Positions 2,425 to 42,867 of a stretch of 42,976 nucleotides of DNA are shown in pieces. How positions within the stretch are numbered: position 1 is the first letter of the stretch; each line of letters begins with the position of its first letter. Below the pieces are notes generated by a model that searched no databases, was not told where the DNA came from, and worked only from the letters and a program-made list of their open reading frames with translations. Source of the stretch: Butyrivibrio sp. (GTDB lineage: Bacteria > Bacillota > Clostridia > Lachnospirales > Lachnospiraceae). Where the stretch lies: the NCBI GenBank assembly GCA_017413105.1, contig JAFPVA010000298.1, positions 1-42,976 on the forward strand, read 5' to 3'. The translations under genes were made by a program, and so were the position numbers.

Positions 2425-2444
2425 AAATAATTCCTATAACATGC

Positions 2445-6467: not shown

Positions 6468-6487
6468 TGTGTTCTCTCAAAAATCAA

Positions 6488-6527: not shown

Positions 6528-6545
6528 CAAATTAATCAAATGTAA

Positions 6546-6854: not shown

Positions 6855-6891
6855 AATATGTACCTCACATATTTAGATTTATCTAAAATTA

Positions 6892-6921
6892 ATTCTAATA
6901 CAGCACTTGTGGAAGTGTCAA
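6892..6921 (-). promoter_or_regulatory. Internal promoter upstream of divIC
   Basis: On the minus strand a perfect TTGACA (6916-6921) and TAGAAT (6892-6897) are separated by 18 bases. The spacer contains the small inverted repeat CACTTCCACAAGTG. It lies in the 86-base gap between rqcP and divIC and would start the divIC-tilS-hpt-ftsH part of the operon. Confidence 0.65.
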
Positions 6922-6932
6922 ACAAAAGCCCC

Positions 6933-6945
6933 GTTACTGTTCAGA
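6933..6945 (+). repeat. Fragment of the GTTACTGTTCAGA dispersed repeat
   Basis: These 13 bases are identical to the end of the two longer repeats at 26171-26215 and 29252-29295, in the opposite orientation. The TGA stop codon of rqcP (complement of 6941-6943) lies inside it. A match this short could be chance, but its position at a gene end fits the other copies. Confidence 0.4.
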
Positions 6946-7180
6946 TATATTTATAAAGCTGCGTCACGTCCTCTTTGTGGATAGTCTCCTGAACATCTAA
7001 AACCTCCACGCTTACGTCCTTGTTTCCAAAGCCGATGGTGATCTTGTCTCCAACCTTTACCTCGGTCGAAGCCTTGGCAGGCTTGCCATTGATTGACACC
7101 CTGCCTGCGTCACAGGCCTCATTGGCCACAGTGCGCCTCTTTATAAGTCTTGTTACCTTTAAATACTTGTCTAATCTCAT
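6941..7180 (-). CDS. rqcP: S4-domain RNA-binding protein, RqcP/YabO type
   Basis: This 79-residue protein is a single S4 RNA-binding domain: MRLDKYLKVTRLIKRRTVA at the start, then the GRVSINGKPAKAS core. In Bacillus the ortholog RqcP (YabO) binds the stalled large ribosomal subunit with RqcH and helps poly-alanine tailing in ribosome quality control. The location just upstream of divIC matches the yabO position in Firmicute genomes and supports the assignment over a generic Hsp15-like protein. It starts 3 bases after the PEGA gene ends, so the two are cotranscribed. Its TGA stop is supplied by a dispersed-repeat fragment. Confidence 0.88.
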   Translation of the reverse strand: MRLDKYLKVTRLIKRRTVANEACDAGRVSINGKPAKASTEVKVGDKITIGFGNKDVSVEVLDVQETIHKEDVTQLYKYI

Positions 7181-7183
7181 ACC

Positions 7184-10463: not shown

Positions 10464-10469
10464 ACCACA

Positions 10470-10498
10470 ATAATAGCCTAAAGAAAAGCTGTTTACAA
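10470..10498 (-). promoter_or_regulatory. Promoter of the cca operon
   Basis: On the minus strand TTGTAA (10493-10498) and TATTAT (10470-10475) are separated by exactly 17 bases. The -10 box ends 6 bases before the cca ATG, so transcription would begin at or next to the start codon. Confidence 0.7.
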
Positions 10499-10564
10499 TA
10501 ATTTAACTGTCCATTTTTAGCTATTGGACGTATACTTAATGTATGAAATTATGAGGACTTTAGT

Positions 10565-13964: not shown

Positions 13965-14014
13965 GATCGAGACTGACTCCTACCCCATTAGCCTACATAT
14001 CTTGTGCAACAAAA

Positions 14015-14075
14015 ATACCGACCTCCCGAAAGATAGATTTTGGATCTACCTTTTCGAGGGTCGGTATATTTTTTA
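14015..14075. terminator. Bidirectional terminator between the GGDEF genes and proS
   Basis: A 9-bp stem ATACCGACC/GGTCGGTAT encloses a second stem (CGAAAG..TAGAT/ATCTA..TTTTCG) and is followed on the plus strand by ATTTTTTA. On the minus strand it ends in ATTTTTG. It can serve both the rightward GGDEF pair and leftward proS. Confidence 0.88.
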
Positions 14076-14144
14076 TATCTGCAAAATATTCCTCAATACC
14101 TTCATGTCATTAACATAAGTGGTTTTCTGTTCCGCGGCACGAAA

Positions 14145-15578
14145 TCAATATGCTCTGCCCCAGTAAACCATCTTTGTTGCAGGCTTTCCACAAACAACGC
14201 AGGTGTCTGAGAGATTATCCTGCTCAAATGGAATACAACGGCTGGTTACATTGTACTCTTCCTTGATCTTGTCCTCACATTCGCGGCATCCGCACCACAT
14301 AGCCTTTACAAAGCCCTTTGTTTCCTTGAAGGCTTCTGTAAATTCTTCCTTGTTGTGCGCCGCAAATGTATGTGCCTCAAGGTGCTTCTTTGCTCTGTCG
14401 AACATGTCTTTCTGAATCTGGTCAAGAAGCTCTCCCATCTTTGCAGGAACTTCATCTATAGCACATTCGATCTTTTCCCTTGTATCACGACGGCAAAGTA
14501 CGCACTTACCTGCCTCAAGATCCTTAGGTCCAATCTCTACTCTTACAGGAATTCCTCTCATCTCCTGCTCAGCGAACTTGAAGCCCGGTGTTCTGTCTGT
14601 ATCGTCAACCTTTACTCTGAATGCTGAAAGGCTCTCGGCAATCTTATTTGCTGCATCGAGAACGCCTTCTTTCTTCTGCTGGATAGGAATGACAACAACC
14701 TGGATTGGAGCAATCTTAGGAGGTACTACAAGGCCTGAATTATCGCCATGTACCATGATCATAGCTCCGATTGTACGGGTTGTAAGTCCCCAAGAAGTCT
14801 GACATACATAGTGAAGCTGGTTATCTTTTCCTGCGTACTGAATACCGAAGGCCTTAGCGAAACCATCACCAAAGTTGTGGCTTGTTGCGCTCTGAAGAGC
14901 ACGTCCGTCATGCATAAGTGCTTCTACAGTGTAGGTAGCCTCTGCTCCGGCGAACTTCTCTTTCTCAGTCTTCTGTCCCTTGATCACAGGAATAGCCATA
15001 TCATTCTCAAGGAAATCAGCATATACATTGAGCATCTGCTGTGTGCGAGCCTCAGCTTCTTCCATTGTTGCATGTGCTGTATGACCTTCCTGCCATAAGA
15101 ATTCACGGCTTCTGAGGAATGGTCTTGTCTCTTTTTCCCAACGAACAACGCTGCACCACTGGTTAAGAACCTGTGGAAGATCTTTGTAGGAGTGAATCTC
15201 TCCTTTATAATAATCGCAGAAAAGAGTCTCTGATGTAGGACGAACACAATATCTTTCTGTAAGTGGCTCAAGTCCGCCATGGGTTACCCATGCTACTTCC
15301 GGTGCAAAACCTTCTACGTGATCCTTCTCCTTCTGAAGAAGTGACTCAGGAATGAACATTGGAAGGTAAGCGTTCTGAACACCTGTCTCCTTAAATCTTG
15401 CATCCAGATGCTTCTGAATAAGCTCCCAGATTGCATATCCTGCAGGCTTGATTACCATACATCCCTTGATGTTGGAATAGCTAACCAGGTCAGCCTTGAT
15501 ACATACATCTGTGTACCATTGTGTGAAATCCTCATCCATGGATGTGATCTCAGCTACGAGTTTCTTGTTGTCTGCCAT
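14145..15578 (-). CDS. proS: Prolyl-tRNA synthetase, short archaeal/eukaryote-like type
   Basis: This 477-residue class II synthetase charges tRNA(Pro) with proline. It is the short form without the bacterial editing insertion. Class II motifs are visible: LPMFIPES, VRPTSET (with the TSE used for ATP and proline binding), RPFLRSREFLWQEGHTAH, and a late GLTTRTIGAMIMVHGD. The C-terminal zinc-type domain carries several cysteine pairs (GCRECEDK and CVVCGK) and ends in WGRAY, as is typical for this subclass. An AGGAG site precedes the ATG. The gene is monocistronic behind a proline T-box leader, so transcription should rise when uncharged tRNA(Pro) accumulates. Confidence 0.97.
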   Translation of the reverse strand: MADNKKLVAEITSMDEDFTQWYTDVCIKADLVSYSNIKGCMVIKPAGYAIWELIQKHLDARFKETGVQNAYLPMFIPESLLQKEKDHVEGFAPEVAWVTHGGLEPLTERYCVRPTSETLFCDYYKGEIHSYKDLPQVLNQWCSVVRWEKETRPFLRSREFLWQEGHTAHATMEEAEARTQQMLNVYADFLENDMAIPVIKGQKTEKEKFAGAEATYTVEALMHDGRALQSATSHNFGDGFAKAFGIQYAGKDNQLHYVCQTSWGLTTRTIGAMIMVHGDNSGLVVPPKIAPIQVVVIPIQQKKEGVLDAANKIAESLSAFRVKVDDTDRTPGFKFAEQEMRGIPVRVEIGPKDLEAGKCVLCRRDTREKIECAIDEVPAKMGELLDQIQKDMFDRAKKHLEAHTFAAHNKEEFTEAFKETKGFVKAMWCGCRECEDKIKEEYNVTSRCIPFEQDNLSDTCVVCGKPATKMVYWGRAY

Positions 15579-29312: not shown

Positions 29313-31130
29313 TCATTTGATAATATATGTTGTAAGGGAACTACCCTTTACAAGCGCAGTAAATGTCTTGCCCGAAGCTTCGATATTATCGCTGTCTGAT
29401 ACATCAGCCCAGTTTTCTCCTGTTTCAACATCTCCGCTGGTCCTGACTGCAGTTATGCTCTCCATGGCTGTATCAAAACCTGACAGGTCAAATTCCCACT
29501 TCTGGTCATCAGTATTTGAATTAAGAACTACAATAACAACGCTCTTATCCTCAGGATTGTAGGCAGCTACAGTAACGTCGCTTGATTCCACAAGGCAGTA
29601 GCCGGGTCTTATATATTTTGAAAACTGTCCGTAGGCATAATATTTTTTGCTAAGAAGGATTTCTTCTTTATCATGGTCTGCAATGGCGATTCCCCAGAAA
29701 GGATCCCCATCCTTGATGATACGGTCAGCTTCTGCCCTTGAGCAGGTGTCGTACTTATTCTTGCTGTCAACGTGAAGATCAACGGCATCCCACATGATCC
29801 AGGCCGTAGGCATGAGACCGTTTAAGTCCTTCATGATCTCTTCCGCAAAGCCAAGAGCTGCACTCATGGCACCGGTCTTCTTGCTCATGGTATAGGTTCC
29901 GTCAACCTCGCTCATCCACAGGTTAACTCCCGCATCCTCCGCTGTCATCTTGAGCATGTTGCGCATTGTTCCCTGGTAAGCGTGGGTGTCGATTCTTGAT
30001 ACTACCTCTTTTGCCTCAGGTGTAAGATGCTGGTAGGAAGTAATTGCAGAGTCAATGCTGGTCTCGTCTGTTCCGCAGATTATCACATCAAGTCCCTTGT
30101 TCTTAAGCTCTTTGTTCAGTTCCACAAGGATTCTTGACTGAACCTCGCCCTGAGTGAAATGACAGCCCTCCTGCTTTTCGCTGAAAGCACCCCAGTAGCT
30201 GGTTGCAGGCTCGTTCATGGGAGATGCACTCTGGAAAGTGATCACTCCCTCTTTTGCCCAGTGCTCGATTACATCAGCCATATAGCAGGCAAAGGCGGTA
30301 AATGAATCTTCCCTGAGGTTATCCTCGGAAGGCTCCTCATTTCCTGAACTGCAGCCGCTGACTGTCATGAAATATGGCGGTGAATTGGAAAATGCCTCTC
30401 CGATAAATTCATCTCCTGCAGCCTTTGCCGCAGCAATAAGAACATTCATCTGGTTCTTATCCGCATCCCAGTCGTAATTCCAGGCAAAGCCACACTCAAA
30501 ATCTGCCCTTACGAAATTCTCCTCATAGTAGGACCTGGAATTCTGTGAAAGATCTATCTTGGTCACATCTTTAGCATAACCCGGAACTATGGAGTCAGAT
30601 CTTCTTATGTGATCCTGATGCAAAAAAGGACTTGGATTCTCGATGGAACTAATATCCTCCTCAGTCACATTGTCACCGCCGCCGATATTGTACCTTCCAA
30701 TGTTCATACCGATTCCGGTGTCCGGATTAAAGAAAGCTTCAGCAGTCTGAGCTGTCAGCTTCTCTGAATAGCCACACCTGTTTGCCCACCAGCAAAGAGA
30801 TGTACCCCAGCCCTGAAACTCGCCGTAACCATCGCCATTGGTATCATTAAATTTCATGATGTTATCCTGATTTAGCTTTACTGTTCTGCTTATTTCCAAA
30901 TCCAAAGTCCCTTCTGTCGTATCCTGTGCTGATCCATCAGCTGATTCCGCCACGTTTTCCAATCCCGACTCGCCGCTTTCCTCAGCATTTTCACCTGCTT
31001 CGCTTAATGCTGCAGTATTATCTGCATTTCCCTTCGCGCTATCATTTCCACAGCCCGTCACACAAGCCGACGCCAAAACGCCTGCCATTAAAATGCCAAG
31101 CGTTTTTCTTGCAAATACTCTGTTATACAT
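29313..31130 (-). CDS. GH30-family glycoside hydrolase, surface lipoprotein
   Basis: This 605-residue protein has a lipoprotein signal: a hydrophobic stretch and lipobox VTGC with Cys27, then an acidic, low-complexity linker to about residue 80. The rest is a GH30 fold: GWGTSLCWW, GMNIGRYNIGGGD, SNSPPYFMTVSGC, acid/base Glu307 in SPMNEPATSYW, nucleophile Glu408 in LWMSEVDGT, and a C-terminal beta domain. It fits the endo-beta-1,6-galactanase branch (COG5520), although xylanase or glucosidase activity in other GH30 branches cannot be excluded. It would act outside the cell on plant arabinogalactan-like glycans. It lies 11 bases after the aldo/keto reductase gene. Confidence 0.88.
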   Translation of the reverse strand: MYNRVFARKTLGILMAGVLASACVTGCGNDSAKGNADNTAALSEAGENAEESGESGLENVAESADGSAQDTTEGTLDLEISRTVKLNQDNIMKFNDTNGDGYGEFQGWGTSLCWWANRCGYSEKLTAQTAEAFFNPDTGIGMNIGRYNIGGGDNVTEEDISSIENPSPFLHQDHIRRSDSIVPGYAKDVTKIDLSQNSRSYYEENFVRADFECGFAWNYDWDADKNQMNVLIAAAKAAGDEFIGEAFSNSPPYFMTVSGCSSGNEEPSEDNLREDSFTAFACYMADVIEHWAKEGVITFQSASPMNEPATSYWGAFSEKQEGCHFTQGEVQSRILVELNKELKNKGLDVIICGTDETSIDSAITSYQHLTPEAKEVVSRIDTHAYQGTMRNMLKMTAEDAGVNLWMSEVDGTYTMSKKTGAMSAALGFAEEIMKDLNGLMPTAWIMWDAVDLHVDSKNKYDTCSRAEADRIIKDGDPFWGIAIADHDKEEILLSKKYYAYGQFSKYIRPGYCLVESSDVTVAAYNPEDKSVVIVVLNSNTDDQKWEFDLSGFDTAMESITAVRTSGDVETGENWADVSDSDNIEASGKTFTALVKGSSLTTYIIK

Positions 31131-31141
31131 ATTACCTTACC

Positions 31142-32272
31142 TTATTTTTTCTCAAATTCTGCAGCTACTTCCTTAAGAAGTGCCCTTATCTCAAGCTGCT
31201 GAGGGCATACTGCTTCACAGCCACCGCATTCAATGCAGGAGCTTGCCTTACCGTTATTGACTGTAAGTACATTGTTATACTGATGGAACTGCCCCCAGTC
31301 ATTGAAAACTCTCTTCATGTTCAGGCAGGCAAAGAGCTCAGGGATCATGATCTCCATCGGGCAATGGTTCTCCTCAACGCAGTAGTGACATGCTGTACAA
31401 GGAATCATGTTCAGTTTCTTGTAAAGAGCTGTAACCTTGGCAACTGCTGCCATTTCGGCATCTGTAAGAGGCTTGAAATCCTTCATGAAGGATACGTTGT
31501 CCTTCATCTGAGCCATATCACTCATTCCGGAGAGGACAATCCTGATACCGTCAAAGCTTGCCGCATATCTTATGGCATAGCTTGCATTGGACAGTCCGTC
31601 CCCAAGCTCCTCAAATACTTTCTGCGCCTCGACAGGAAGATTTACAAGGCTTCCGCCCTTAACAGGCTCCATAACGATTACCGGTTTGCCATGCTTTCTG
31701 CAGACCTCGTAAACCTTGCGGCTCTCAGCCGGTGAATCCTCATAGTCCACGTAGTTAAACTGGATCTGTACTATCTCGATCTCGGGATAGGTTGTAAGGA
31801 TATTATCAAGAACAGTGGCCTTGTCGTGGAAAGAAAGACCAACATGCCTGATTTTTCCTTCTTTTTTTAGTTCAAAAGCGGTCTCATAAGCTCTGCACTT
31901 TTTAAACTTCTCAAAGTTATGTGCATTCTGAGCATGCATCAAATAGAAGTCAAAATACTCAACGCCGCAGGCATCAAGCTGAGACTGGAAGAAAGGTCTG
32001 ATATCCTCTTCCTTGTCGAAATATGGCTCAGTGAGCTTATCTGTCAAAAGATATTTATCCCTTGGATATCTGTCGGTTAATGCAACCTTTATAGCCTTCT
32101 CAGATTTTCCATCTATATATCCGTGAGCTGTATCAAAATAGTTAAAACCATTGTCTAAAAAGTAATCTGTCATTTCCTTGAACTGCTCAATATCAACCTC
32201 TGAGCCATTCATAGGAAGTCTCATGCAACCAAAGCCAAAAAATGTTTTGATCTCAGGAAAAGAATTATCCAT
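31142..32272 (-). CDS. Aldo/keto reductase with C-terminal ferredoxin-like domain
   Basis: This 376-residue protein is an NAD(P)H-dependent aldo/keto reductase; the catalytic region reads NYFDTAHGYIDGKSE with Asp47 and Tyr52, followed by YFDFYLMH. The last 90 residues carry two cysteine clusters, CTACHYC..HCP and CIECGGCEAVCP, of the 4Fe-4S ferredoxin type, as in many anaerobe versions (COG1453). The natural substrate is not inferable. The frame extends to 32296, but the ATG at 32272 has GGAGGG at a good distance. A terminator ends 17 bases before that site, and no promoter is obvious between them. Confidence 0.92.
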   Translation of the reverse strand: MDNSFPEIKTFFGFGCMRLPMNGSEVDIEQFKEMTDYFLDNGFNYFDTAHGYIDGKSEKAIKVALTDRYPRDKYLLTDKLTEPYFDKEEDIRPFFQSQLDACGVEYFDFYLMHAQNAHNFEKFKKCRAYETAFELKKEGKIRHVGLSFHDKATVLDNILTTYPEIEIVQIQFNYVDYEDSPAESRKVYEVCRKHGKPVIVMEPVKGGSLVNLPVEAQKVFEELGDGLSNASYAIRYAASFDGIRIVLSGMSDMAQMKDNVSFMKDFKPLTDAEMAAVAKVTALYKKLNMIPCTACHYCVEENHCPMEIMIPELFACLNMKRVFNDWGQFHQYNNVLTVNNGKASSCIECGGCEAVCPQQLEIRALLKEVAAEFEKK

Positions 32273-32301
32273 ATTGTGCCCTCCATAACTAGTCAACGCC
32301 C

Positions 32302-32342
32302 AAAAAAAATCTACCTATGTTGAATTTTAACATAGGCAGATT
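32302..32342 (-). terminator. Terminator downstream of the CE2-type esterase
   Basis: On the minus strand AATCTGCCTATGTT pairs with AACATAGGTAGATT (one mismatch) and is followed by eight T. It is a strong terminator but stands directly upstream of the aldo/keto reductase ribosome binding site. Confidence 0.93.
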
Positions 32343-32372
32343 AAAATCGAAACATCTATATTTAACCGTTTT

Positions 32373-33503
32373 TTACCAGTTCATCATGGTTCTGAGATAG
32401 TTTGAAAGAGCCTTTGCAGCCCCTTCATGGGAAGCTCTTCCGGGATGCATGTGCGCACCCACAGTCTCCATGGTTGTATCCGGAAGCTGGAAGAAGGAAA
32501 TATTGGTATCCCCTGTATTTCTCCTGTATTCTGTCATTGCTTCCGTTATGGTCAGGTCAAGGTCGCAGAAAAGCATGCCGTAGCACCAGGCAATATGCGC
32601 CTTGGGATTATGCTTCCTCAGCATGGTAAGGAAGTTTACAATGGCCTTTTCTACCTTGAGCTCATCCTCTCTGTTTAATGAACCGTCCTCATTCTTACGC
32701 TGCTTGTACGTTTGTCCATCCTCGGGATTTACAAAAGGCGGCTGGTTAAAAGAAGTAATGTCATTGGTTCCAAGATTTACCACAATCACATCCGGCTGCC
32801 AGGAAGCAAAATCATATTCTTCATGAGCTCCAAGCTCTTTTGCCACTGCTCCTCCGCAAAGACCGCAGACTTTCTCATATACTGAAGGGATATTGTGCCT
32901 AGGGTCGTTGTCCCAACCACAGAATACCCCCCAGCCGCCCTGGGATATCAGATGATAATCCGCATTAAGCAGCTTGGCTGTCATGGTTGCATAGTTGACC
33001 GATGCACTCATATACATGGCAAGCCAGTCCGTATCAGTTACAGCACCATAGCTTCCCTCTCCGGAGGTAATGCTGTCTCCGATAAACTCTATCTTTCTCT
33101 CGTATTTTGGAACTTCCAGAAAAGAGCCGTTTACATCAAGTTCCAGGCCCTTGACCATTACTTTGCATACGCCATCATCTCCCATGGCCTGAAGTTCGCG
33201 ATAGAACCTTACGCGCTTTGGAATTGAAGACTCCATGTTTCTGAAAAGGCAGATCCTGTGCTCTCCGGGAAGCAGCATCTGACGCCCTATAAATGCGCCG
33301 TTTATCTCATAAGCCACCCAGGGCTCATGAAAATCCGAATCCGTCTCAAGGTCTATCCACAGATCGGAACCGGTTACCACAACCTCAATACCACTTCCGT
33401 TAAACAAAAGCGGCATCGGCTGCCTTACCTTCCCCATTCTTCCGAAAATATGGATATTCTTAATCTCGCTAATATCCGTGTAAATAACTTCACTCATCCC
33501 CAT
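32373..33503 (-). CDS. SGNH/GDSL esterase, carbohydrate esterase family 2-like
   Basis: This 376-residue protein has an N-terminal beta-sandwich of about 130 residues and a C-terminal SGNH hydrolase domain, the layout of CE2 acetyl esterases. The motifs are EFIGDSITSGEG (Ser144), VVNLGTND (block III) and a C-terminal GAHMHPGRASHE carrying the catalytic His. CE2 enzymes remove acetyl groups from xylan or mannan and are frequent in rumen Butyrivibrio. There is no signal peptide, so it should act inside the cell on imported acetylated oligosaccharides. AAGGGG precedes the ATG. It is flanked by terminators on both sides, so it is monocistronic; no clear promoter was found in the 80 upstream bases. 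Confidence 0.88.
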   Translation of the reverse strand: MGMSEVIYTDISEIKNIHIFGRMGKVRQPMPLLFNGSGIEVVVTGSDLWIDLETDSDFHEPWVAYEINGAFIGRQMLLPGEHRICLFRNMESSIPKRVRFYRELQAMGDDGVCKVMVKGLELDVNGSFLEVPKYERKIEFIGDSITSGEGSYGAVTDTDWLAMYMSASVNYATMTAKLLNADYHLISQGGWGVFCGWDNDPRHNIPSVYEKVCGLCGGAVAKELGAHEEYDFASWQPDVIVVNLGTNDITSFNQPPFVNPEDGQTYKQRKNEDGSLNREDELKVEKAIVNFLTMLRKHNPKAHIAWCYGMLFCDLDLTITEAMTEYRRNTGDTNISFFQLPDTTMETVGAHMHPGRASHEGAAKALSNYLRTMMNW

Positions 33504-33544: not shown

Positions 33545-33583
33545 AAAAAATGGAGACCAAACACTTATAAATGCTCGGTCTCC
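33545..33583 (-). terminator. Terminator of the sensor/ABC importer operon
   Basis: On the minus strand GGAGACC pairs with GGTCTCC around a longer loop, followed by ATTTTTT. It lies 35 bases past the stop of the ABC ATPase gene and is the end of the leftward unit that starts at 42683. Confidence 0.92.
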
Positions 33584-33617: not shown

Positions 33618-35264
33618 TCAGATTTCAAGCTTTCCTGCGCAGATAAGCTTTCCTGAACGACGGTCAAAAAGAAGGATGTCATTTCCGTTAATGCTGATCT
33701 TCTCTTCCTGTCCGATCTTGTAGATAACTCCTCCGAAAATAACGCTGGTAAGAAGATACTCGCCAATCTTAAGCTTTAATGTAGACTCCATACCTGTAGG
33801 CATTGCGCCATAGATCGTGGTGTCAACTTTTCCATTTGCATCAATGTCGATAGCCTCAGGACGGATACCGATAACAAAGTCCTCATCGGTGATAACAGGC
33901 TCTTCCATAAGACTCTCGTCCTGCTCCTCGACCTTCTGTACGTGATATTTGAAGACTTCATCCTTATTGGTCTTTTCTACTGCACCTTTCTGCATAAGGC
34001 GCTGGCGCTCAAACTCCTGCTTGTCGGCAGCTTCTTTATCCCTGCCTGCTCTCCACTCAGAAAGATCCAGTTTCTCATTAGGTACAAAACGTGCTTTTAT
34101 TCCCCCAAGAATATCTACAGAAACGCTGCCATCAGAGTCCTGTTTTCCCTTTGCATCCACAAAGTTCATAGAAGGATTTCCAACGAAGTCTGCAACAAAG
34201 AGGTTTGCCGGTCTGTTGTATACTTCAAGAGGAGCTGCGTACTGCTGAAGAACACCGTTGTTTACAAGGCAGATCCTTGTTGCCAGAGTCATGGCCTCCA
34301 TCTGGTCATGAGTTACATATACGAAAGTGCTTCCTGTCTCAACATGGAGTCTCTGAAGCTCATATCTCATCTCGAGACGAAGCTTTGCATCAAGGTTTGA
34401 CAAAGGCTCATCCATGAAAAGAACCTGTGGCTCAGGAGCCAGTGTTCTTGCGATAGCAACTCTCTGCTGCTGACCTCCGGAGAGCTCTGCCGGATATCTG
34501 TCCATGAACATTCCGATCTTAACAATTCTTGAGCAGGCTCTTACCCTTGAGTCGATCTCTTCCTTTGTGAGCTTTCTGTTTTCGAGGATAGCCATTCCGT
34601 TTTTTGTAACTTCATACTTTTCGTTAAGGCCCTTGCCCTCGCTCTCATATTTTTTCTTAATTGCTGAGAGCTTTCCTTCATACTCCGAAAGCTTTGTCTT
34701 TGCTGCTGCCACAGGGTCAGATGCACTGTGAACCCCAAGTCCGAACAGCTCTTTTGCCGTATAGATTGAAATACCAAAGGCATCGATGAGCTTGATGTGT
34801 GCCTTGTTCTCATCAAGCTTTCCGGTCTTATCCCTGCACTCTTCCACAACCTCTTTTACCTTGTTGCCGTTTGAAAGAGCTCTGATCATGTCCCCGGCCT
34901 GCTTTGCGGAAACATCTATAACAGGCATCTCCTCATGAATATTCTTAAGACCAAAAGAGATGTTCTCGTATACTGTCATATTTGGCCAAAGAGCATAGTT
35001 CTGGAAAAGAAATCCAACTTTACGCTTATTGGCAGGCACGTTTATTCCTGCATTCGAATCAAATACAACCTTGTCACCGATCTTGATGCGGCCCTCTGTA
35101 GGTGTCTCAAGACCTGCTATCATTCTGAGGATTGTGGTCTTACCGCATCCTGAAGGTCCCAAAAGAGTAATGAATGAGTTATTTGGAATATTGAGGCTTA
35201 CGTTATCAACGCCAAAAAATTTACCCCAACGCTTAGTTATGTTCTCTAAAATAATTTCCGGCAT
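33618..35264 (-). CDS. ABC importer ATPase with a large inserted segment
   Basis: This 548-residue ATPase powers the importer formed with the two genes upstream. Walker A is GPSGCGKTT (about 36-44), the Q-loop LFQNYALW (about 86-93), the signature LSGGQQQRVAIA (261-272), Walker B VLFMDEPLSNLD and the switch His in VTHD. The C-terminal TOBE-like domain contains GIRPEAID. Between Q-loop and signature the normal spacing is about 50 residues, but here it is 171, an insertion of about 120 residues rich in Lys/Glu with coiled-coil character (for example KLSEYEGKLSAIKKKYESEG). A second, shorter charged insertion interrupts the TOBE region (around 395-445). The ATG at 35264 is chosen over the GTG at 35270 for ribosome-binding-site distance. 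Confidence 0.93.
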   Translation of the reverse strand: MPEIILENITKRWGKFFGVDNVSLNIPNNSFITLLGPSGCGKTTILRMIAGLETPTEGRIKIGDKVVFDSNAGINVPANKRKVGFLFQNYALWPNMTVYENISFGLKNIHEEMPVIDVSAKQAGDMIRALSNGNKVKEVVEECRDKTGKLDENKAHIKLIDAFGISIYTAKELFGLGVHSASDPVAAAKTKLSEYEGKLSAIKKKYESEGKGLNEKYEVTKNGMAILENRKLTKEEIDSRVRACSRIVKIGMFMDRYPAELSGGQQQRVAIARTLAPEPQVLFMDEPLSNLDAKLRLEMRYELQRLHVETGSTFVYVTHDQMEAMTLATRICLVNNGVLQQYAAPLEVYNRPANLFVADFVGNPSMNFVDAKGKQDSDGSVSVDILGGIKARFVPNEKLDLSEWRAGRDKEAADKQEFERQRLMQKGAVEKTNKDEVFKYHVQKVEEQDESLMEEPVITDEDFVIGIRPEAIDIDANGKVDTTIYGAMPTGMESTLKLKIGEYLLTSVIFGGVIYKIGQEEKISINGNDILLFDRRSGKLICAGKLEI

Positions 35265-35266
35265 GA

Positions 35267-37093
35267 TCACTTTCCTCCTATGCCGCTGTCAAGGCTTGCG
35301 CCTGTCAGCTTGTTTACCAAAGTATTAAATACAAGAATTGTCACGATAAGAATGAGGTTTATTGCACTTGAGAAGGCATAAAGTCCCATCTCATCGAAGT
35401 AGTCCAGTGTTGTGGACAGGATAAAGCCCTGTGTACACAGAAGCAGGAAAAGAGAAAGCTCACGAAGACATGTCATGAATGGAAGCAGATATCCACTGAT
35501 GATGGAAGACTTCTGGATAGGAATTATGATCCTGGTCATTCTCTTTATCCAAGGCGTATTCTGAATTATCGCAGCCTCCTCCAGTTCGTTTGAAATCTGA
35601 AGCATTGAGTTTAATGAGCTTCTCGATGCAAACGGTATATATTTAACAACACCTGCGATTATCAGAAGTGTATATGTATTAAACAGATTGATGTACTCGT
35701 TGGAGAACAGGATAAAGAACGCAGCTCCAACGGCGATTGAAGGCATAAGGTAAGGCAAAAATGCTACGTTGTTTACATAATTTGCCCACTTATTTCTTCT
35801 CTTTTTTGCAACGGCGTAACCGATAAGTGTTCCGATCGTACCTGCGATAAGTGCGCAGACAACAGCCAGAAGCAGGGTTCCGAAGAATGCATGCCAGATG
35901 GTCTTGTTGTAAAGAATTCCTGACTGGCCATACATGCCGTTTTCTGTAATGTTTTCGTTTGTTACCCACCACTTGGTTGTAAGATGTGCAAGGTTTCCTG
36001 TGTAAAGGAAGCTGTAATCTCCCGGGTTTGGAAGGAAGGTCTCAAGGGCAAACAAAAGGATTGGCCAGATACTTGTAAAGAAGGTGATCACAATAAAGAT
36101 GATACCAACTATGTATTTGCCTGCTTTTCCGATTGAAAGCTTTGTGAGCTGTCCTGATTTTCCGGTAACTGTGGTGTAGTTCTTACGGCTCTTTAAGCTG
36201 AGCTGGTTCATACCAAGAATAAGAACACCGAATACCATCATGATGATGGCGAGGATACTTGCTTCACCGGTGTACTTACTGTTCATGGAAATGTACTTGG
36301 TAGAAAGAGTTGTAAGGTTCAGATAATGTGGAACAGGGTAACTTCCCATGGCGCTTCCGAATACCAGAAGGATCGTGGAAAGAATAGCCGGCTTGATCAT
36401 TGGAAGGGTTACTTTGAACATGATCTTCCACTTTGGTGTATCAAGGATTGTTGCTGCTTCCTCAAGGTTGGCATCCATGTTCTTGAAGATACCGCCGATA
36501 AGGATATAGGCAAAGGGTGCATAATGAAGACCCAGAACTACTGCACTTGGGAAAACTCCCTGACACCACCAGTGTGGGAAGTACACATGGAAGATAGCTG
36601 CCAAAAGACCATCCGATGTTCCTGTCACTTTGTTAGAATAAAACATATGCTGCCATACAACAGCCAGTGTCCACTGGGGCATGATGTATGGGAAAATAAA
36701 GATCGAGCTTAAGTACTTCTTAAATTTCATATCTGTTCTTGTTACAAGGAACGCGAACAGACCACCAAAAAGAATTGATATAACGCAGGTAAGGACTGAA
36801 AGGATCACTGTGTTCAGCAGTGGATTCCACAAATTTGTCTTTGCCAGCTTACTTGTAAAAAGATCTGTATAGTTGACGATTGTATAACCGGAAACCCTCT
36901 TGGTCAGATGCTGATCGATGGTTCCGGGATGTATTGCAAAGGTATCTTTTACGATTGCGACAATAGGTGCGACGGTACTAAAGGTAAGAACAATCCCAAA
37001 CAGCAAAAGTATAATATTCTGAGGTTGGGAAAACCATGTCTTTACCTTATTCTTGAAAATCGCACTTTTGTCCTGTTTTGCGATTGTATCCAT
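35267..37093 (-). CDS. ABC importer permease, two fused membrane domains
   Basis: This 608-residue protein fuses two permease domains of about six helices each, as in FbpB/AfuB/PhnU-type importers. Both halves carry the EAA loop that contacts the ATPase: LEEAATILDTPKWKI (first half) and LEEAAIIQNTPWIKR (second half). An open frame reaches 37222, but those extra codons lie in the palindrome at 37123-37275; the ATG at 37093 has AGAGG upstream. It ends next to the ATPase start. With the ATPase and the lipoprotein gene 37329-38753 it forms a complete importer of the Fe3+/sugar-phosphate/phosphonate group. Confidence 0.93.
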   Translation of the reverse strand: MDTIAKQDKSAIFKNKVKTWFSQPQNIILLLFGIVLTFSTVAPIVAIVKDTFAIHPGTIDQHLTKRVSGYTIVNYTDLFTSKLAKTNLWNPLLNTVILSVLTCVISILFGGLFAFLVTRTDMKFKKYLSSIFIFPYIMPQWTLAVVWQHMFYSNKVTGTSDGLLAAIFHVYFPHWWCQGVFPSAVVLGLHYAPFAYILIGGIFKNMDANLEEAATILDTPKWKIMFKVTLPMIKPAILSTILLVFGSAMGSYPVPHYLNLTTLSTKYISMNSKYTGEASILAIIMMVFGVLILGMNQLSLKSRKNYTTVTGKSGQLTKLSIGKAGKYIVGIIFIVITFFTSIWPILLFALETFLPNPGDYSFLYTGNLAHLTTKWWVTNENITENGMYGQSGILYNKTIWHAFFGTLLLAVVCALIAGTIGTLIGYAVAKKRRNKWANYVNNVAFLPYLMPSIAVGAAFFILFSNEYINLFNTYTLLIIAGVVKYIPFASRSSLNSMLQISNELEEAAIIQNTPWIKRMTRIIIPIQKSSIISGYLLPFMTCLRELSLFLLLCTQGFILSTTLDYFDEMGLYAFSSAINLILIVTILVFNTLVNKLTGASLDSGIGGK

Positions 37094-37122
37094 GTAGTTC
37101 CTCTTTTCTCTGATTATAAAAC

Positions 37123-37275
37123 GGTGAGCCGCTGGCGAAGTGATCATGACAATATGTACACGTCTCTCATTGTGCTGACACTTCGCAAAGCCAAAATAAT
37201 TGGTCTTTGCTACGTAGCACAAAAATCGTTCCTTAGTACATATTTGTCTGGATCACTTGCGCCACGCGGCTCACC
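37123..37275. repeat. 153-bp imperfect palindrome between the binding-protein and permease genes
   Basis: The left arm (37123-37159) begins GGTGAGCCGCTGGCGAAGTG and the right arm (37236-37275) is its near-perfect reverse complement, ending GCGGCTCACC. An inner inverted repeat, TTGTGCT...CAAAGCCAA (37170-37194) against TTGGTCTTTG...AGCACAA (37200-37222), fills most of the middle. The whole could fold into one long hairpin. The rest of the 235-base gap shows no gene. Confidence 0.85.
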
Positions 37276-37328
37276 TGTCATTCTTTAACCGCATAGACAG
37301 AAAATGCGGATTCCTTATTCTCCTCTAC

Positions 37329-38753
37329 TTACTCACCCGGAGCATAGTGATCAAGCACGTCGATCCAGCTTCCAACTGTGAAGGATACTTCTGAACAGTA
37401 TGCAGGATCCTCAAGAACCAGCTCGCCTGTTGTTGTCCACCAGTCATAACCACGGTCGTTCTTTGCAGGGAACTCGTCTCCGCCACCCTGTGAGTGGTGG
37501 AATGTATCTTCGATCTCCTGAGCTACGTTAGGGTTAGCCGAGTATCCACCCATATCTTTTCCCCAAGCCTCGAAGCCCTTCTCTGTGCAAGTCATGTAAG
37601 CGATGAATGCGCATGCTGTCCAAGGAAGTGGGCTGTTCTTTGTAAGGAAGAGGTAATGGCAATAGCCATATCCGCCGATTCCTGTGTAGCCATCCTGATA
37701 TGCTGCTACGTTGATATTGTTAACAGAAACTGTTGCTGACTCCTCTACAGAACGAAGCTTACTGTAAACAAGAAGTCCTGACTGATCCTTAGCTGAAGCA
37801 TCTACAAGAGTGTTGCAGATAGGACCGTCATCGGTCTGCTCGTTGTAGTTGTTAACCCAGAGCTTGATCCATGCAAGAGCATATGCACCGTTTGCGCCAA
37901 GTCCGAGGTCGCTGGCATCTGTCTGCATCTCCTGGATAGTAGGCTCGAAGTATGCCTTCTTTGTATCGTCAAGCTTGTCATAAGCTTCTTTAAGCCATGT
38001 AGCGTACTTCTCTTCTGTGAGCATCATAAGGAAGTTCTTTCCTACGATCTCAGAATCAACGCCCATGAAAAGAGGATGTGATCCTTCATATACAAAATCC
38101 CAGCAGTTTGCAAAGGTTGCACTGCCCTGATTGTTGTACATGAATACCTTGTTAAGTGTCTGAAGTGGAAGGAAACCTGCATAAGCATCAGCAGTTGTTC
38201 CGTTAGCCTCTGCCCACTCCTTAGGAATGAAGGTCTTTAAGATATCTGTGTCAACCATCTTGCTCTGGATCTGGTTACCATCCTGAATAAGAGTCATGGC
38301 AAAAGTGCCTTCGCTCTTAAGGGAATCAGATGTGAGCTGTTCGAAGATCTTGTTGTTCTTTGGCTGCTGCCACTCGAACTCCATTGTGTAGGAAGGATCG
38401 ATAGACTGCAGATACTCGATAAATACCGGAAGTGCTGACTTGCCTCGGCTGGAGTTACCAACGCCATAGAAGGTCTTTCCGTTTGACTCTTCGATAGCTT
38501 TTTTAGCAAGCTCTTCCATTGTCATGCCTTCTGCCTCAGCGATGATGGCATCAATGCCGGTGAGCTCTGCTGCAGGAGCTGCTGTCTCAGTAGCAGCTGT
38601 AGTGTCAGCTTTTGTTGTGTCAGATGAAGTTGTAGTTGTCTGAGTTTCTGTGGTTGATGTTGTCGTTGTGCTTTCTGCTGCGCTTCCGCATCCAACGAGA
38701 GATGTAACCACCATTGTGAAAGCTAAGATTGTAGATAATACTTTCTTTTTCAC
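37329..38753 (-). CDS. ABC importer substrate-binding lipoprotein
   Basis: This 474-residue secreted lipoprotein has a signal peptide with lipobox LVGC (Cys22), a Ser/Thr-rich linker to about 60, and a periplasmic-binding-protein fold of the Fe3+/iron-like family. It should capture the solute for the permease/ATPase pair. The GTG start at 38753 has AAGGAGG upstream and begins KKKVLSTILAF; a longer frame to 38915 has no good start signal. A possible terminator lies between it and the response regulator gene. A 235-base gap with a long palindrome follows it, a position where hairpins usually raise expression of the binding protein over the permease. Confidence 0.92.
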   Translation of the reverse strand: MKKKVLSTILAFTMVVTSLVGCGSAAESTTTTSTTETQTTTTSSDTTKADTTAATETAAPAAELTGIDAIIAEAEGMTMEELAKKAIEESNGKTFYGVGNSSRGKSALPVFIEYLQSIDPSYTMEFEWQQPKNNKIFEQLTSDSLKSEGTFAMTLIQDGNQIQSKMVDTDILKTFIPKEWAEANGTTADAYAGFLPLQTLNKVFMYNNQGSATFANCWDFVYEGSHPLFMGVDSEIVGKNFLMMLTEEKYATWLKEAYDKLDDTKKAYFEPTIQEMQTDASDLGLGANGAYALAWIKLWVNNYNEQTDDGPICNTLVDASAKDQSGLLVYSKLRSVEESATVSVNNINVAAYQDGYTGIGGYGYCHYLFLTKNSPLPWTACAFIAYMTCTEKGFEAWGKDMGGYSANPNVAQEIEDTFHHSQGGGDEFPAKNDRGYDWWTTTGELVLEDPAYCSEVSFTVGSWIDVLDHYAPGE

Positions 38754-38792
38754 TTTTTGTCCTCCTTTTATATACGCCCGGCTATTTTTCCG

Positions 38793-38839
38793 AGAAAAGA
38801 AAAATGAACTTGCCAGGCATTTTTTTGCTTTACAAGTCC
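38793..38839 (-). terminator. Possible terminator downstream of the response regulator
   Basis: On the minus strand GGACTTG pairs with CAAGTTC (one G-T pair) with a small inner TGCC/GGCA, then ATTTTTCTTTTC. It lies in the 200-base gap before the binding-protein gene, in which no convincing promoter was seen, so readthrough is likely. Confidence 0.4.
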
Positions 38840-38953
38840 ATTTTAGGTTTATCAATATTTTATTTGCAGAGGACAATTCTGATATTATTTGTATTATTCT
38901 AACCTGTTTATCCATTTGGCGATTAGCCGAAGTCTCTTTTCATCCGTCTCTTT

Positions 38954-39718
38954 TTAACCAAGTCCCTTACTCTGATACTCGGAAGGCGCTGTTCCCACCA
39001 GCTTTTTAAAGGTATTGGAAAAATAGGCGATGTCCTGATAGCCGACTTTTTCTGCCACCTCATAGACCTTTGCCTGCACATCCTTAAGAAAATCCATGGC
39101 TCTTCTGATGCGGTATCTGGTGAGGTAGTTGCCTATGCTTATCTCAGTCTCTGCTTTAAAGAGCCTGCTGATGTGGCCTTCGCTGACACTCATGGACTCG
39201 GCAAGTTTTCCGATACTGAACTCCTTATCTGCATAATTCTTTTCTATATATTCAATGGCAACCTGAACATACCTGTTCTCTACTTCCTCTTTTCTCTTAA
39301 GAGGAATCAGGCCGTTTTCCAGCTCAGCCGTTGCTGCAGCTGTGCTGGGGTGAAGATGAAGGAGCCTTTGTATGGAGCCCTCCAGTTCGCCGTCCTGGAA
39401 AGGTTTTAAAAGATAATCCGATACCCCTAATCTCACCGCCTGCCTTGCATACTCAAACTCATTGTAGGCAGTAAGGAAAATGACCTTTGTGTCAGGATAT
39501 TTTTCCAAGAGCTTCCCTGCCAGTTCTATACCGTCCATTTTGGGCATCTTTATATCAGAAACCACCAGGTCCGGTCTAAACTCTTTTGCCAGCTCAAGAG
39601 CCATCTCACCGTTTGATGCTTCCGCCACCACTTCACAACCGATAAGGGCCCAGTCTGTATCATTTTTTATTCCCATTCGGACATACTTTTCATCGTCCAC
39701 TATCATTACTTTAATCAC
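38954..39718 (-). CDS. Response regulator, YesN/AraC type
   Basis: This 254-residue regulator has a receiver domain at 1-120 with the acidic pair DD (8-9), phospho-acceptor Asp55 in VVSDIKMPKMDG, LTAYNEF and the Lys in DYLLKPF. The C-terminal 100 residues are a two-helix AraC-type DNA-binding domain (EFSIGKLAESMSVSEGHISRLF and VAEKVGYQDIAYFSNTFKK). It is shorter than typical YesN because it lacks the middle domain. It should be phosphorylated by the adjacent kinase and activate the importer genes downstream. The same arrangement is found in HptR-type regulators. Confidence 0.94.
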   Translation of the reverse strand: MIKVMIVDDEKYVRMGIKNDTDWALIGCEVVAEASNGEMALELAKEFRPDLVVSDIKMPKMDGIELAGKLLEKYPDTKVIFLTAYNEFEYARQAVRLGVSDYLLKPFQDGELEGSIQRLLHLHPSTAAATAELENGLIPLKRKEEVENRYVQVAIEYIEKNYADKEFSIGKLAESMSVSEGHISRLFKAETEISIGNYLTRYRIRRAMDFLKDVQAKVYEVAEKVGYQDIAYFSNTFKKLVGTAPSEYQSKGLG

Positions 39719-39784
39719 GTCTAACTACCCCCAGATGCTTTCCTTATGCTCATCTGTTTTTCTTTGTTCATTATTTTTTTATCT

Positions 39785-41605
39785 TTATTCTATCTTATTA
39801 GAATCCACCGGCTCTTTATAGGACAGGGGCAAAAGAACCTTCATGATGGTTCCGCCTTCCTCAGCCTTTCTGGCGCTGACACCATATTCTTTTCCGTAAT
39901 AGATCCTTATGATGGTGTTCACGTTGTTAAGACCCAGATGCCCCTCCAAAGTGTCGGGATCATCGTTAGCAAGAGCCTCCACCACTTCCTCACTGATTCC
40001 GGCACCATTGTCTCTTATGGTTATCTCCAGTAGGTCTGTATAAGCAGTATTTTCTTCATTCTGCGCTGCTATCGCCCCTGAACTCTTTTCATTTACGCCG
40101 GGATTTCCGCTATCATTTTCTGCATTCTCAGAGGTTCCTGCCCCTCTCCATCCTCTGGCAGTGATCCAAATATGTCCGTCGGTCCTTCCCTCCAAGCCAT
40201 GGATTATAGCATTCTCAACAATCGGCTGCAAAATGAGCTTAGGTATAATGGCCTCCTCAATATCTTTTGGCAGATCCACTGTCAGGTCAAAAGAGTCATC
40301 GAAGCGGATCTTCTGGATCTCGCAATAGCTCTCCACCAGCTTTATCTCCTGAGAAAGCTTGCAGAACTGCTTTTCCGAGATACTGGTCCTTAAGATACTG
40401 GCCAGCGATGCGGACAAAGTTGCCACCTCGGGAACCTGATTGGCCTTGGCAACCCACTTTATGGTATCAAGAGTATTGTACAAAAAGTGTGGATTAAGCT
40501 GCGCCTGCATCATCTGAATCCTGGTCTCGTTGACCCTGTGCTCAGCAGCAACCCTCTCTTCCATGGTCTGATTGAGCTGGGTTGTCATTTTGTTAAAGCC
40601 TGTTGCAAGCTGCTCAAACTCATCCTCTCGCTCAAGTTCTATCCTGGTCTCAAAGTCGCCTTTCCTGAAGCGCTTCATTGCCGCTGCCAGCTGTCTTATG
40701 GGCTTTGAGAAATAGGAGCTCATCCTGGAAGCCACTGCAAGGCAGACTACAACGCTAATCAGTGCCTGGATAAGGATGATCTGATAGCCCACTTTTGCCG
40801 CAGAATCATCCAGTGCAGGCGGTGTGAGATATATGCTGAGAAGCCCTGTAGATCCAATCTCCTGAATGTAGACATTACTGCCTACTCCGGCATTATACAA
40901 TGCTCCCCGCATCAGGTTGTTCCTGATTATTGAAAGAGTCTCTCCGTCCTCCGCTATACCAAGGAGACAGTACAGCCTAAGATACTCATTTGTCAGCATA
41001 AAGCCGTCTCTTGAATTTATCTTTCCGCTGATCCTGTCTTCAATAACACTCTGCTCAAGCCTTATGACAACATAGCCGTTTTGAGGCTCCCTGATCAGAT
41101 TCCTTGCTATCAAAAGAGCTGCTCCCGTCTCTGATGAGGTCTCCGGATCAAGGGCATAGACTATCTGTCCTTTCTTTTTGGTAGCTTCCTTTAGGACTGA
41201 GTAATTCTCCGGAAGGCGGTTTATGGAGTATCCGCTCTTTGTGCTGTAAATGCACCTGCTGCCCTGATAAAGCTCAACTGTAGTAAAGTCCCTGATATCT
41301 CTTGTATCCTCATAGAGAGAAGTATAAACCGTAAGGCTGTTGCTAGGTCTTTCTCCAAAAGCAGCTTCCATCAGTGCCTCATCATGGGCTATTTTATTGA
41401 TTGCCCCTTCAACCAGCCCAAGATCTGACTCAAGCTGAAGAGTAAGTGTTCTGTCCTGCTCAATATCTCTTTTCTTGTAATCCGCCCTTATACTGGCCTG
41501 AAACCCCTGAACAGTCAGTATTCCTCCAATGATGACCATGGCAAGAGTAACTGCAAGGAAAATCAAAAAAATCTGTCTTTTGAAGGACTGTCTGATAAAT
41601 CCCAT
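39785..41605 (-). CDS. Sensor histidine kinase, YesM family
   Basis: This 606-residue kinase has a first membrane helix at about 12-32, a 240-residue extracellular sensing region, a second helix at about 274-293, a HAMP domain (SRMSSYFSKPIRQLAAAM on), and a HisKA_7TM/His_kinase domain with His373 in LNPHFLYNTLD. The HATPase domain shows LQPIVENAIIHGLEGR and ITIRDNGAGIS, with an unusual 35-residue, low-complexity insertion between them. It presumably phosphorylates the regulator encoded next. The ATG at 41605 has AAGGAGG upstream and follows the sensor lipoprotein stop by one base, so the two are translationally linked. Confidence 0.94.
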   Translation of the reverse strand: MGFIRQSFKRQIFLIFLAVTLAMVIIGGILTVQGFQASIRADYKKRDIEQDRTLTLQLESDLGLVEGAINKIAHDEALMEAAFGERPSNSLTVYTSLYEDTRDIRDFTTVELYQGSRCIYSTKSGYSINRLPENYSVLKEATKKKGQIVYALDPETSSETGAALLIARNLIREPQNGYVVIRLEQSVIEDRISGKINSRDGFMLTNEYLRLYCLLGIAEDGETLSIIRNNLMRGALYNAGVGSNVYIQEIGSTGLLSIYLTPPALDDSAAKVGYQIILIQALISVVVCLAVASRMSSYFSKPIRQLAAAMKRFRKGDFETRIELEREDEFEQLATGFNKMTTQLNQTMEERVAAEHRVNETRIQMMQAQLNPHFLYNTLDTIKWVAKANQVPEVATLSASLASILRTSISEKQFCKLSQEIKLVESYCEIQKIRFDDSFDLTVDLPKDIEEAIIPKLILQPIVENAIIHGLEGRTDGHIWITARGWRGAGTSENAENDSGNPGVNEKSSGAIAAQNEENTAYTDLLEITIRDNGAGISEEVVEALANDDPDTLEGHLGLNNVNTIIRIYYGKEYGVSARKAEEGGTIMKVLLPLSYKEPVDSNKIE

Positions 41606-41606
41606 A

Positions 41607-42683
41607 CTAGTCCTCCTTTTCCGCAGCCAGCTCATCCCAAAGTGCTATGACAGCTGACTCTTCGCTTGCAGATTTTTTTATATCGAAAGGAATGATCCTC
41701 ACATAGCCATATTCGCTGCTAAGGGCAATGTCTGTCCGGACAGGCCTTCTGTAGAAATTCTCCATGGCATATTCCTGAGTATCATAGCTCACCACAAAGT
41801 CCATGAATAATCCGGCATTGTAGGAATGGGGCGCATTCTTTATAATGGCGCAGCCGTCGGGAACAGCACTGGTACCATCCTCCGGATAGATCATGGAAAT
41901 ATTGTAGCCCATATCTATATATTTTTTTGCAGTCTCTTCAAGAGTGATTCCCACAAGATATGAACCGTCGGAAACCCTTGGAATTATCTGCCCTGAGGAA
42001 CTTAGTACCCTTCCCCCAAGCTGCTCATAAAACCTTGGAACCAGGCTCTCTTTTTCCTCTTTAAAGAGCTGCTGCATGGTGGAAAGAATCGTATAACTTG
42101 TTCCGGAATTATTGGGGTCCGCAAATGCTATTTTTCCCTTCCACTCTTCGTCAAAAAGCTCCTCCCACTTCCTTGGAGCATCAGTAGAAGCCACCAGCTT
42201 ATTGTTATAGATAAAAACAATAGGAAGCTCTGTGAATGCAGTCCAGTATCCACCTTCAGATTTATCTGCCCTGTCAATCTTGTCATTTTCGCTGGTCACG
42301 TATGGAGCAAAAATATCCTCATGAGCCCTGTAGCTCTCGATTCCACCGCCAAACATGATGTCGCAGCTTCCGCTCTCTGAGGCCTCCGCCGCAAGCTGCA
42401 TCATCTGCGCCGTTCCACCGGCATGGACATCCACCCAGATACCTGTCCTGTCCTCAAATTCCCTGATGATTGGAAGATACACTTCCTCCTTGTGGGATGT
42501 ATATACGATGAGCTGCTTCTCATTCGAGACAGCATATTTTTTCGAAATGTACTCAACATCTTTTTGTCTGGAGTCAAAAGAGCACGCAGAAAGCAGCAGT
42601 AACAGAGCGCACTCTACTACTGCTGCCATTATCATCTTACGTGTTTTTCCCCAGTGCCTGTCTTTTTCTCCCCGGATTCTCAT
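41607..42683 (-). CDS. Binding-protein-like sensor lipoprotein
   Basis: This 358-residue protein is a lipoprotein (lipobox LSAC, Cys34) of the Fe3+-type periplasmic-binding family (YTSHKEEVYLPIIREFE, then GGTAQMMQLAAEA and IMFGGGIESY). It is a second binding protein in the same operon, next to the kinase, unlike the dedicated importer subunit at 37329. The order binding protein, YesM kinase, YesN regulator is that of Staphylococcus HptA-HptS-HptR, in which HptA is a sugar-phosphate sensor. I infer that it binds the inducer and signals to the kinase; the ligand is not shown by the sequence. A GAGAG site precedes the ATG. Confidence 0.88.
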   Translation of the reverse strand: MRIRGEKDRHWGKTRKMIMAAVVECALLLLLSACSFDSRQKDVEYISKKYAVSNEKQLIVYTSHKEEVYLPIIREFEDRTGIWVDVHAGGTAQMMQLAAEASESGSCDIMFGGGIESYRAHEDIFAPYVTSENDKIDRADKSEGGYWTAFTELPIVFIYNNKLVASTDAPRKWEELFDEEWKGKIAFADPNNSGTSYTILSTMQQLFKEEKESLVPRFYEQLGGRVLSSSGQIIPRVSDGSYLVGITLEETAKKYIDMGYNISMIYPEDGTSAVPDGCAIIKNAPHSYNAGLFMDFVVSYDTQEYAMENFYRRPVRTDIALSSEYGYVRIIPFDIKKSASEESAVIALWDELAAEKED

Positions 42684-42767: not shown

Positions 42768-42796
42768 ATTATAGCAAAGAAATATTTTTATATCAG
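42768..42796 (-). promoter_or_regulatory. Candidate promoter of the sensor/importer operon
   Basis: On the minus strand CTGATA (42791-42796) and a perfect TATAAT (42768-42773) are 17 bases apart, about 80 bases before the sensor gene. The 293-base right end of the window (42684-42976) holds otherwise only AT-rich sequence and a doubtful small frame. Confidence 0.6.
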
Positions 42797-42867
42797 TTTT
42801 GCTACAATTCGCTGCCCTGTATCTGCTCTCTGTCTGTTACTATTCACAGATTAAATGAGGATACATA

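Follow-up and report, generated by a model that had tools for sequence, protein, structure and literature searches.

The window analysed here is a stretch of 42,976 nucleotides (nt) of Butyrivibrio sp., a member of the Lachnospiraceae, which covers positions 1 to 42,976 of contig JAFPVA010000298.1 (assembly GCA_017413105.1). Six genes in its list of open reading frames (ORFs) lie on the reverse strand between positions 33618 and 42683: a sensor lipoprotein, a YesM-type kinase, a YesN-type regulator, an importer lipoprotein, a fused permease and an ATPase, in this order (Table 1). We consider it likely that these genes form a sense-and-import cassette of two transcription units, in which a three-component sensor would switch on an importer of the ATP-binding cassette (ABC) type. 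An earlier reading, made from the sequence alone, had already described six leftward genes closed by a terminator, with a YesM/YesN-type pair and a complete importer with two different binding proteins. The ORFs, the Pfam and NCBIfam domains and the closing stem agree with this description, including the order and the span of the genes.

Table 1. Features of the cassette, its promoters and its terminators
Feature	Positions	Strand	Basis or remark
Sensor lipoprotein (HptA/AfuA/PhnS-like), first gene of the sensor unit	41607..42683	-	ORF, family and PDB searches
YesM-type histidine kinase	39785..41635	-	His_kinase, HAMP, HATPase_c; 29 base pair (bp) overlap with the end of the sensor gene
YesN-type response regulator	38954..39718	-	Response_reg and HTH_18 (receiver and AraC-type helix-turn-helix)
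Importer lipoprotein (solute-binding protein)	37329..38753	-	start corrected to GTG at 38753
Fused permease	35267..37222	-	two BPD_transp_1 stretches
ABC ATPase, 550 amino acids	33618..35270	-	ORF overlaps permease ORF by 4 bp
ATPase stretch with insert of about 116 residues, residues 112-232	34575..34937	-	between FGLKN region and LSGGQ signature
Terminator ending the importer unit	33552..33583	-	14-pair stem
Candidate sigma-70-type promoter of the sensor unit, CTGATA-17-TATAAT, extended -10	42768..42796	-	consensus match only
Conserved box ATATCAGAATTGTCC, proposed regulator binding site	38871..38885	-	model of 33 loci
Upstream half-site position, 20 bp away	38891..38905	-	strong in some relatives; -3.6 bits in the window
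Importer promoter -10, TAAAAT	38840..38845	-	40 bp after box start
Terminator hairpin and T-run between the units	38795..38844	-	hairpin 38801-38844, -17.0 kcal/mol; 5' arm coincides with -10 and start region

A scan of a genome collection found 304 relatives, of which 80 were kept; two other loci (L077 and L083) were added, which gives 82 loci. The kept relatives belong to Butyrivibrio, which contains the closest loci, and to Pseudobutyrivibrio, Oribacterium, Roseburia, Hungatella and other genera. All six genes exceed the score bars in 60 of the 82 loci, and 56 of these 60 keep the same order and strand, so the arrangement is not due to chance. The six genes are genuine. Four complete loci are rearranged. 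The whole sensor set is divergent in L077 and L083, while in L167 and L177 only the sensor and kinase genes are divergent. The remaining 22 loci are cut by contig ends, or have their sensor genes elsewhere or missing.

A close relative of the importer lipoprotein is found in 28 of the 61 genomes of the genus. In a wider draw, its profile finds matches in 21 of 299 family genomes and in 2 of 398 from the phylum. Mean pairwise identity, calculated with stop-to-stop ORFs, is highest in the permease (0.86), followed by the importer lipoprotein (0.77), the ATPase (0.73), the regulator (0.59), the sensor (0.50) and the kinase (0.46).

Clustering of the ORFs around the 82 loci has not revealed any linked catabolic gene. 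Outside the cassette, the commonest cluster occurs in 18 loci and its position varies; the clusters that follow it reflect synteny among close relatives. Because a neighbouring gene family is shared by 18 of the 82 loci at most, the cassette looks self-contained. Downstream of it, the window contains a GH30-like hydrolase, an aldo/keto reductase with a ferredoxin domain and a GDSL esterase (29313-33503), which are not conserved with the cassette; the esterase is near the acetylxylan esterase/glucomannan deacetylase model. A limited literature search found no paper on this cassette, which is not proof of absence. Papers are cited here by their PMC identifiers.

A box before the importer genes

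The ORF of the importer lipoprotein (37329-38915) begins too early: The lipobox and the comparison with its relatives place the start at the GTG codon shown in Table 1. Therefore, 200 bp of non-coding DNA separate the regulator and importer genes, and this region contains a conserved box. A model of the box was trained on 33 non-redundant loci and tested on 33 held-out loci: 29 of them have a box of at least 8 bits, as against 3.3% of shuffles. A second copy fits best at exactly -20 (mean -4.1 vs -23.6 bits), and this upstream half-site is strong in L157, L160 and L161. In 53 of 58 loci, a -10 element (at least 5 of 6 matches) lies exactly at +40, counted from the start of the box, while the next offset accounts for only 4.

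The box appears to follow the sensor. It reaches at least 10 bits in 69 of the 74 loci with a linked sensor. Ten loci have no linked sensor, and we have checked the genomes of seven, leaving out L137 and L180. Three of these genomes contain the sensor elsewhere (L136, L156 and L183; 413, 434 and 239 bits), and all three loci keep the box. No sensor above 133 bits is found in the other four (L150, L158, L228 and L232), and none of these loci has the box. The one-sided Fisher probability, calculated by hand, is 1/35. In another locus, L221, the neighbouring sensor is diverged (154 bits) and the box scores 6.0 bits. As the box in the importer promoter tracks the presence of the sensor across genomes, we infer that sensor and importer are linked.

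The exact combination of box and -10 is found at 18 places in the 61 genomes of the genus, all of them before this importer gene, and at a single place in the genome to which the window belongs. When four sites with one mismatch are included, 22 of the 28 genomes which contain the importer have a site. In total, there are 13 places with one mismatch, 4 at this importer and 9 elsewhere, while controls with the reversed pattern give 6. The importer is thus the only recognisable target predicted for the regulator in the genus; no further exact site has been found, either in its own genome or in the 61 genomes of the genus, which might give a clue to the ligand.

Several facts weigh against a sensor acting through this box. 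Because the loci used for training and for testing are homologous, the test measures conservation and not independent recurrence. The upstream half-site is weak in the window itself. Five loci with a linked sensor stay below 10 bits: L119 (7.6), L140 (8.3), L171 (9.4), L167 (5.1) and L177 (6.9). In the last two, the regulator gene adjoins the importer while sensor and kinase are divergent, and no good box has been found, which suggests a different site or promoter layout. Finally, the bar of 230 bits used to define a cassette-type sensor was chosen after the scores had been seen, and one genome (G581) contains a homologue of 133 bits.

The sensor unit itself does not appear to be controlled by the box: None of 77 upstream regions has a forward box of at least 12 bits. 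A reverse box is found in six of them, three of which are a shared divergent promoter. We should also note a reverse box-like site upstream of the sensor gene in the window (42790-42804, forward strand, 14.0 bits), which may be due to chance or to autoregulation. The candidate promoter of this unit is weak, as the region contains 24 comparable sites, compared with 18.1 +/- 3.8 in shuffles.

The two binding proteins and the pump

The sensor lipoprotein matches SBP_bac_6 in Pfam, and its match to the PhnS type in NCBIfam is below the cutoff. When the profile of its family is compared with the PDB, HptA is the top match (6lkg/6lki, E 1.3e-43) among 51 PDB sequences, in line with the sequence-only reading. 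It is followed by P5PA (1.6e-35), 8x1a (3.3e-32) and AfuA (4r72, 4.4e-32), and further down by iron-type and aminoethylphosphonate-type chains. In P5PA and AfuA, phosphate is held by Thr37, Ser147-Gly148-Thr149 and Ser183 (PMC8427247). The counterparts in the sensors, identified by eye, are GGT, SG[ST] and Ser175; T36, S138, G139 and S175 are invariant across 27 sensors. By its sequence the sensor belongs with HptA, P5PA and AfuA. As most positions of the phosphate pocket are kept, its ligand is likely to be a phosphorylated small solute, which is our best guess.

AfuA also has a sugar triad, His205-Asp206-Glu229 (PMC4546632). By eye, the corresponding positions are Glu-Glu-Val in the sensor and Glu-Gln-Asn in HptA, so neither protein keeps the triad. 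HptA binds glucose-6-phosphate in spite of this, which means that the triad does not exclude sugar phosphates as ligands. The sensor, permease and ATPase are all below the NCBIfam cutoffs for 2-aminoethylphosphonate systems of the PhnSTUV type (91.6/310, 102.4/593 and 290.9/457.7 bits, respectively). The N-terminal region of the kinase has no sequence match in the PDB.

The importer lipoprotein has no match in Pfam or NCBIfam, and no PDB match beyond chance is obtained with the single sequence or with the profile, which gives one chance match. SBP_bac_8 is reached by 8 of 33 relatives, with E values of 0.0066 or weaker. A bridging relative with 31% identity, which is part of a different importer (L186), matches SBP_bac_1 at 6e-5, under its cutoff, and FbpA-type PDB chains at E 0.0013. 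It is therefore probable that the importer lipoprotein belongs to the same wide superfamily, from which it has diverged strongly. The importers which contain these remote relatives (L186, 2234-9944, and L187, 6566-14242) have a GntR/UTRA regulator in place of the sensor unit and an ATPase without the insert, and a protein with an F5/8 type C domain is found downstream of them.

Sensor and importer might handle different solutes: The sensor might respond to a sugar phosphate, for instance, as a sign of a food source, and the importer might take up a co-released compound. We regard this as a real possibility, if less likely than a shared solute. Comparison of the profile of the importer lipoprotein, which has low diversity, with that of the sensor family gives a probability of only 7.9% that they are related. 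This is close to refuting the idea, present in the sequence-only reading, that the two binding proteins share a family, so the sequences give no support to a common ligand. They have also evolved unequally (mean pairwise identity 0.77 for the importer protein, 0.50 for the sensor), and the ligand ranges of CuaD and CuaA, binding proteins of a known system discussed below, differ (PMC10384115). On the other hand, the importer is the only target that we can recognise for the regulator in the genus, and the systems with two binding proteins described in that paper sense what their pump imports (PMC10384115).

It is rather unlikely that the sensor lipoprotein is a second transport protein for the same permease, with a kinase which senses alone. 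Proteins of the AfuA, P5PA and PhnS types are in fact transport proteins, and in six relatives, from other families or genera, one such protein heads a five-gene set. Nevertheless, the sensor gene opens the unit which contains the kinase gene, the two ORFs overlap, and in L236 and L238 the sensor gene moves with the kinase. Its divergence tracks that of the kinase (r 0.94) above that of the importer protein (0.89) or the permease (0.85). The five-gene sets (L086, L087, L089, L091, L094 and L095) contain one sensor-family binding protein, ATPase, permease, kinase and regulator: A single protein possibly serves for both sensing and transport in them.

The permease is FbpB/PhnU2-like and the ATPase belongs to the MalK class, according to NCBIfam models whose curated cutoffs are not reached. 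In one locus (L106, identical to L100) the fused permease appears as two adjoining ORFs at about 1500-3500, split or frameshifted. The ATPase has a feature which the sequence-only reading had missed, an insert of about 116 residues after the FGLKN stretch. Its length is nearly fixed: Of 75 family ATPases, 71 have a distance of 173 residues from the Q-loop to the signature, and the others have 169 (two ATPases), 164 (one) or 57 (one, in L158). The ATPase of another six-gene set in the same genome (L084) has a distance of 52 residues. The insert is moderately conserved and gives only chance-level matches in Pfam and the PDB. Of the 299 family genomes, 18 have the insert, and each of these is one of the 21 which contain the importer protein. 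What is new here, as judged from these comparisons, is an uncharacterised importer whose ATPase has a near-fixed-length insert seen only in this cassette.

The importer set of L158 lacks both the insert and the box, and no sensor homologue is found in its own genome. We have considered the insert as a link with the kinase on this basis, an idea that we have rejected: L228 and L232, without a linked sensor or box, retain the insert.

The terminator between the two probable units

The non-coding region also contains a terminator hairpin. The hairpin at 38844-38801 of the window is more stable than any of 200 shuffles. Of 66 loci, 49 have a hairpin of -12 kcal/mol or lower, with a T-run, in the region that separates regulator and importer, as against 4 of 59 shuffles. 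Its position varies. In 25 loci, which comprise the window and 24 relatives, the start of the hairpin falls within the -10, between +41 and +46 of the box; in 21 of the 66 it ends upstream of the box, in some cases possibly within coding DNA; three are placed otherwise. The divergent loci L077, L083 and L181 have no hairpin overlapping the -10.

In the 25 overlapping hairpins, two-sided changes are found at 8 of the 9 pairs, and 95.1% of the cells are paired, which none of 500 shuffles equals. The covariation score is 0.496, compared with 0.170 in shuffles, and slid registers are only 25-42% paired. These loci were chosen because they have a hairpin, which inflates the paired percentage and must be counted against our interpretation. 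So must L136, which keeps the hairpin over the -10 with no regulator gene upstream: The role of the hairpin therefore goes beyond stopping read-through from the sensor unit. Transcription starts about 7 bases after a -10 element, which would place the start of the importer transcript near 38833. The overlap of promoter and terminator, as predicted from these hairpins, is a new feature.

The dyad might instead be the operator of a repressor, as it covers the -10 and the start region, where repressors bind. We find this improbable: Both arms change freely, with compensation on both sides at 8 of the 9 pairs, a T-run follows the dyad, and in other relatives the terminator lies upstream of the box instead.

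The sequence-only reading had joined sensor and importer in a single operon, and only half of this proposal stands: Their linkage is supported, and two transcription units are probably a better description than one. A six-gene operon whose promoter precedes the sensor gene would explain the single strand, the short gaps (save the 200 bp one) and the order kept in most complete loci. It is an improbable explanation, since the importer has its own -10 at a fixed spacing, a terminator separates the two halves, and the box persists in loci whose sensor genes are divergent (L077, L083) or elsewhere in the genome (L136, L156, L183); sensor and kinase genes are also divergent in L167 and L177.

Proposed mechanism and comparison with known systems

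The following scheme is built on sequence comparisons, which show the gene set and its conservation, the box, the fixed spacing of the -10, the covarying hairpin and the joint occurrence of box and sensor, and from which we infer the binding of the regulator to the box, the contact between sensor and kinase, the start site, the insulation, the ligand and the shared solute. The first unit (sensor lipoprotein, kinase and regulator) would be a three-component system. The sensor lipoprotein would bind a small extracellular solute, probably phosphorylated, and signal this to the kinase by way of the extracellular part of the latter; the kinase would then phosphorylate the regulator. The regulator would recognise a direct repeat (20 bp period) situated immediately upstream of the -35 position, and thereby activate the promoter of the second unit (importer lipoprotein, fused permease and ATPase): The pump would be made when the sensor reports the solute. 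The terminator would block read-through from the first unit, as read-through transcripts would fold the 5' arm of the hairpin, while transcripts from the activated importer promoter would lack nearly all of this arm and might escape termination.

A bolder version seems doubtful to us, if worth stating. The importer would be a new ABC branch, in which a domain inserted in the ATPase, beside the permease-facing surface, regulates or gates transport, and the overlapped promoter and terminator would be fired only by the activated regulator, preventing leak from an always-on sensor unit.

Roughly half of the Butyrivibrio genomes studied contain the cassette, as do scattered genomes of other Lachnospiraceae. 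With its sensor of the HptA/AfuA family and its strongly conserved pump, this suggests an unnamed solute of importance in the rumen and gut. The sensor, the promoter and the pump all lie at one locus.

In summary, the cassette is a conserved variant of a known architecture for sensing plus import, in which the insert of the pump and the overlap of promoter and terminator are new. In HptA-HptS-HptR of Staphylococcus aureus, extracellular sensing switches on an importer, and HptA-HptS provides a model for the contact (PMC8774646). Both systems have a binding protein of the same family, a sensor kinase and an AraC-type regulator. However, the Hpt target is a single-protein antiporter, UhpT, while the target in the cassette would be an ABC importer, which has a binding protein for itself. 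The specificity of HptA for glucose-6-phosphate is known, whereas our sensor is likened to it by sequence.

XylFII-LytS-YesN and XylFGH of Clostridium beijerinckii have the same layout, with two units and two binding proteins. This is also the case of CuaD-CuaS-CuaR and CuaABC-CbpA of Ruminiclostridium cellulolyticum, which have separate binding proteins for sensing and transport, adjoining but distinct units, and a YesN/AraC regulator which activates the importer unit (PMC10384115). According to this paper, cuaDSR is constitutive, cuaABC is induced by CuaR, and CuaS binds CuaD but not CuaA (PMC10384115). The Cua and Xyl systems import sugars by means of sugar-type binding proteins (family 1, XylF), while our sensor belongs to the HptA/AfuA family. 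Besides, the Cua system has a linked catabolic enzyme and no ATPase gene; the cassette encodes an ATPase, which is unusual, and no catabolic gene has been found to accompany it.

The pump resembles AfuABC and importers of the P5PAB/C type, with a fused FbpB/PhnU2-like permease and a MalK-class ATPase, and the sensor is a relative of both AfuA and P5PA. Genome annotations frequently present such pumps as importers of iron or phosphonate, as happened at one time with AfuABC (PMC4546632). AfuABC differs from our importer, whose binding protein is not recognisably AfuA-like and whose ATPase contains the insert.

Another similar system is found in the same genome. The second six-gene set, L084 (G000:C201:5000-24000, 6439-14704), has the same gene order, but its importer protein is AfuA/PhnS-like (phnS2 168 bits, cutoff 392.75) and its ATPase has no insert. 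By eye, this importer protein has the H-D pair of the AfuA sugar site. The cassette in the window looks like an architecture of the L084 or five-gene type in which the pump would have been exchanged.

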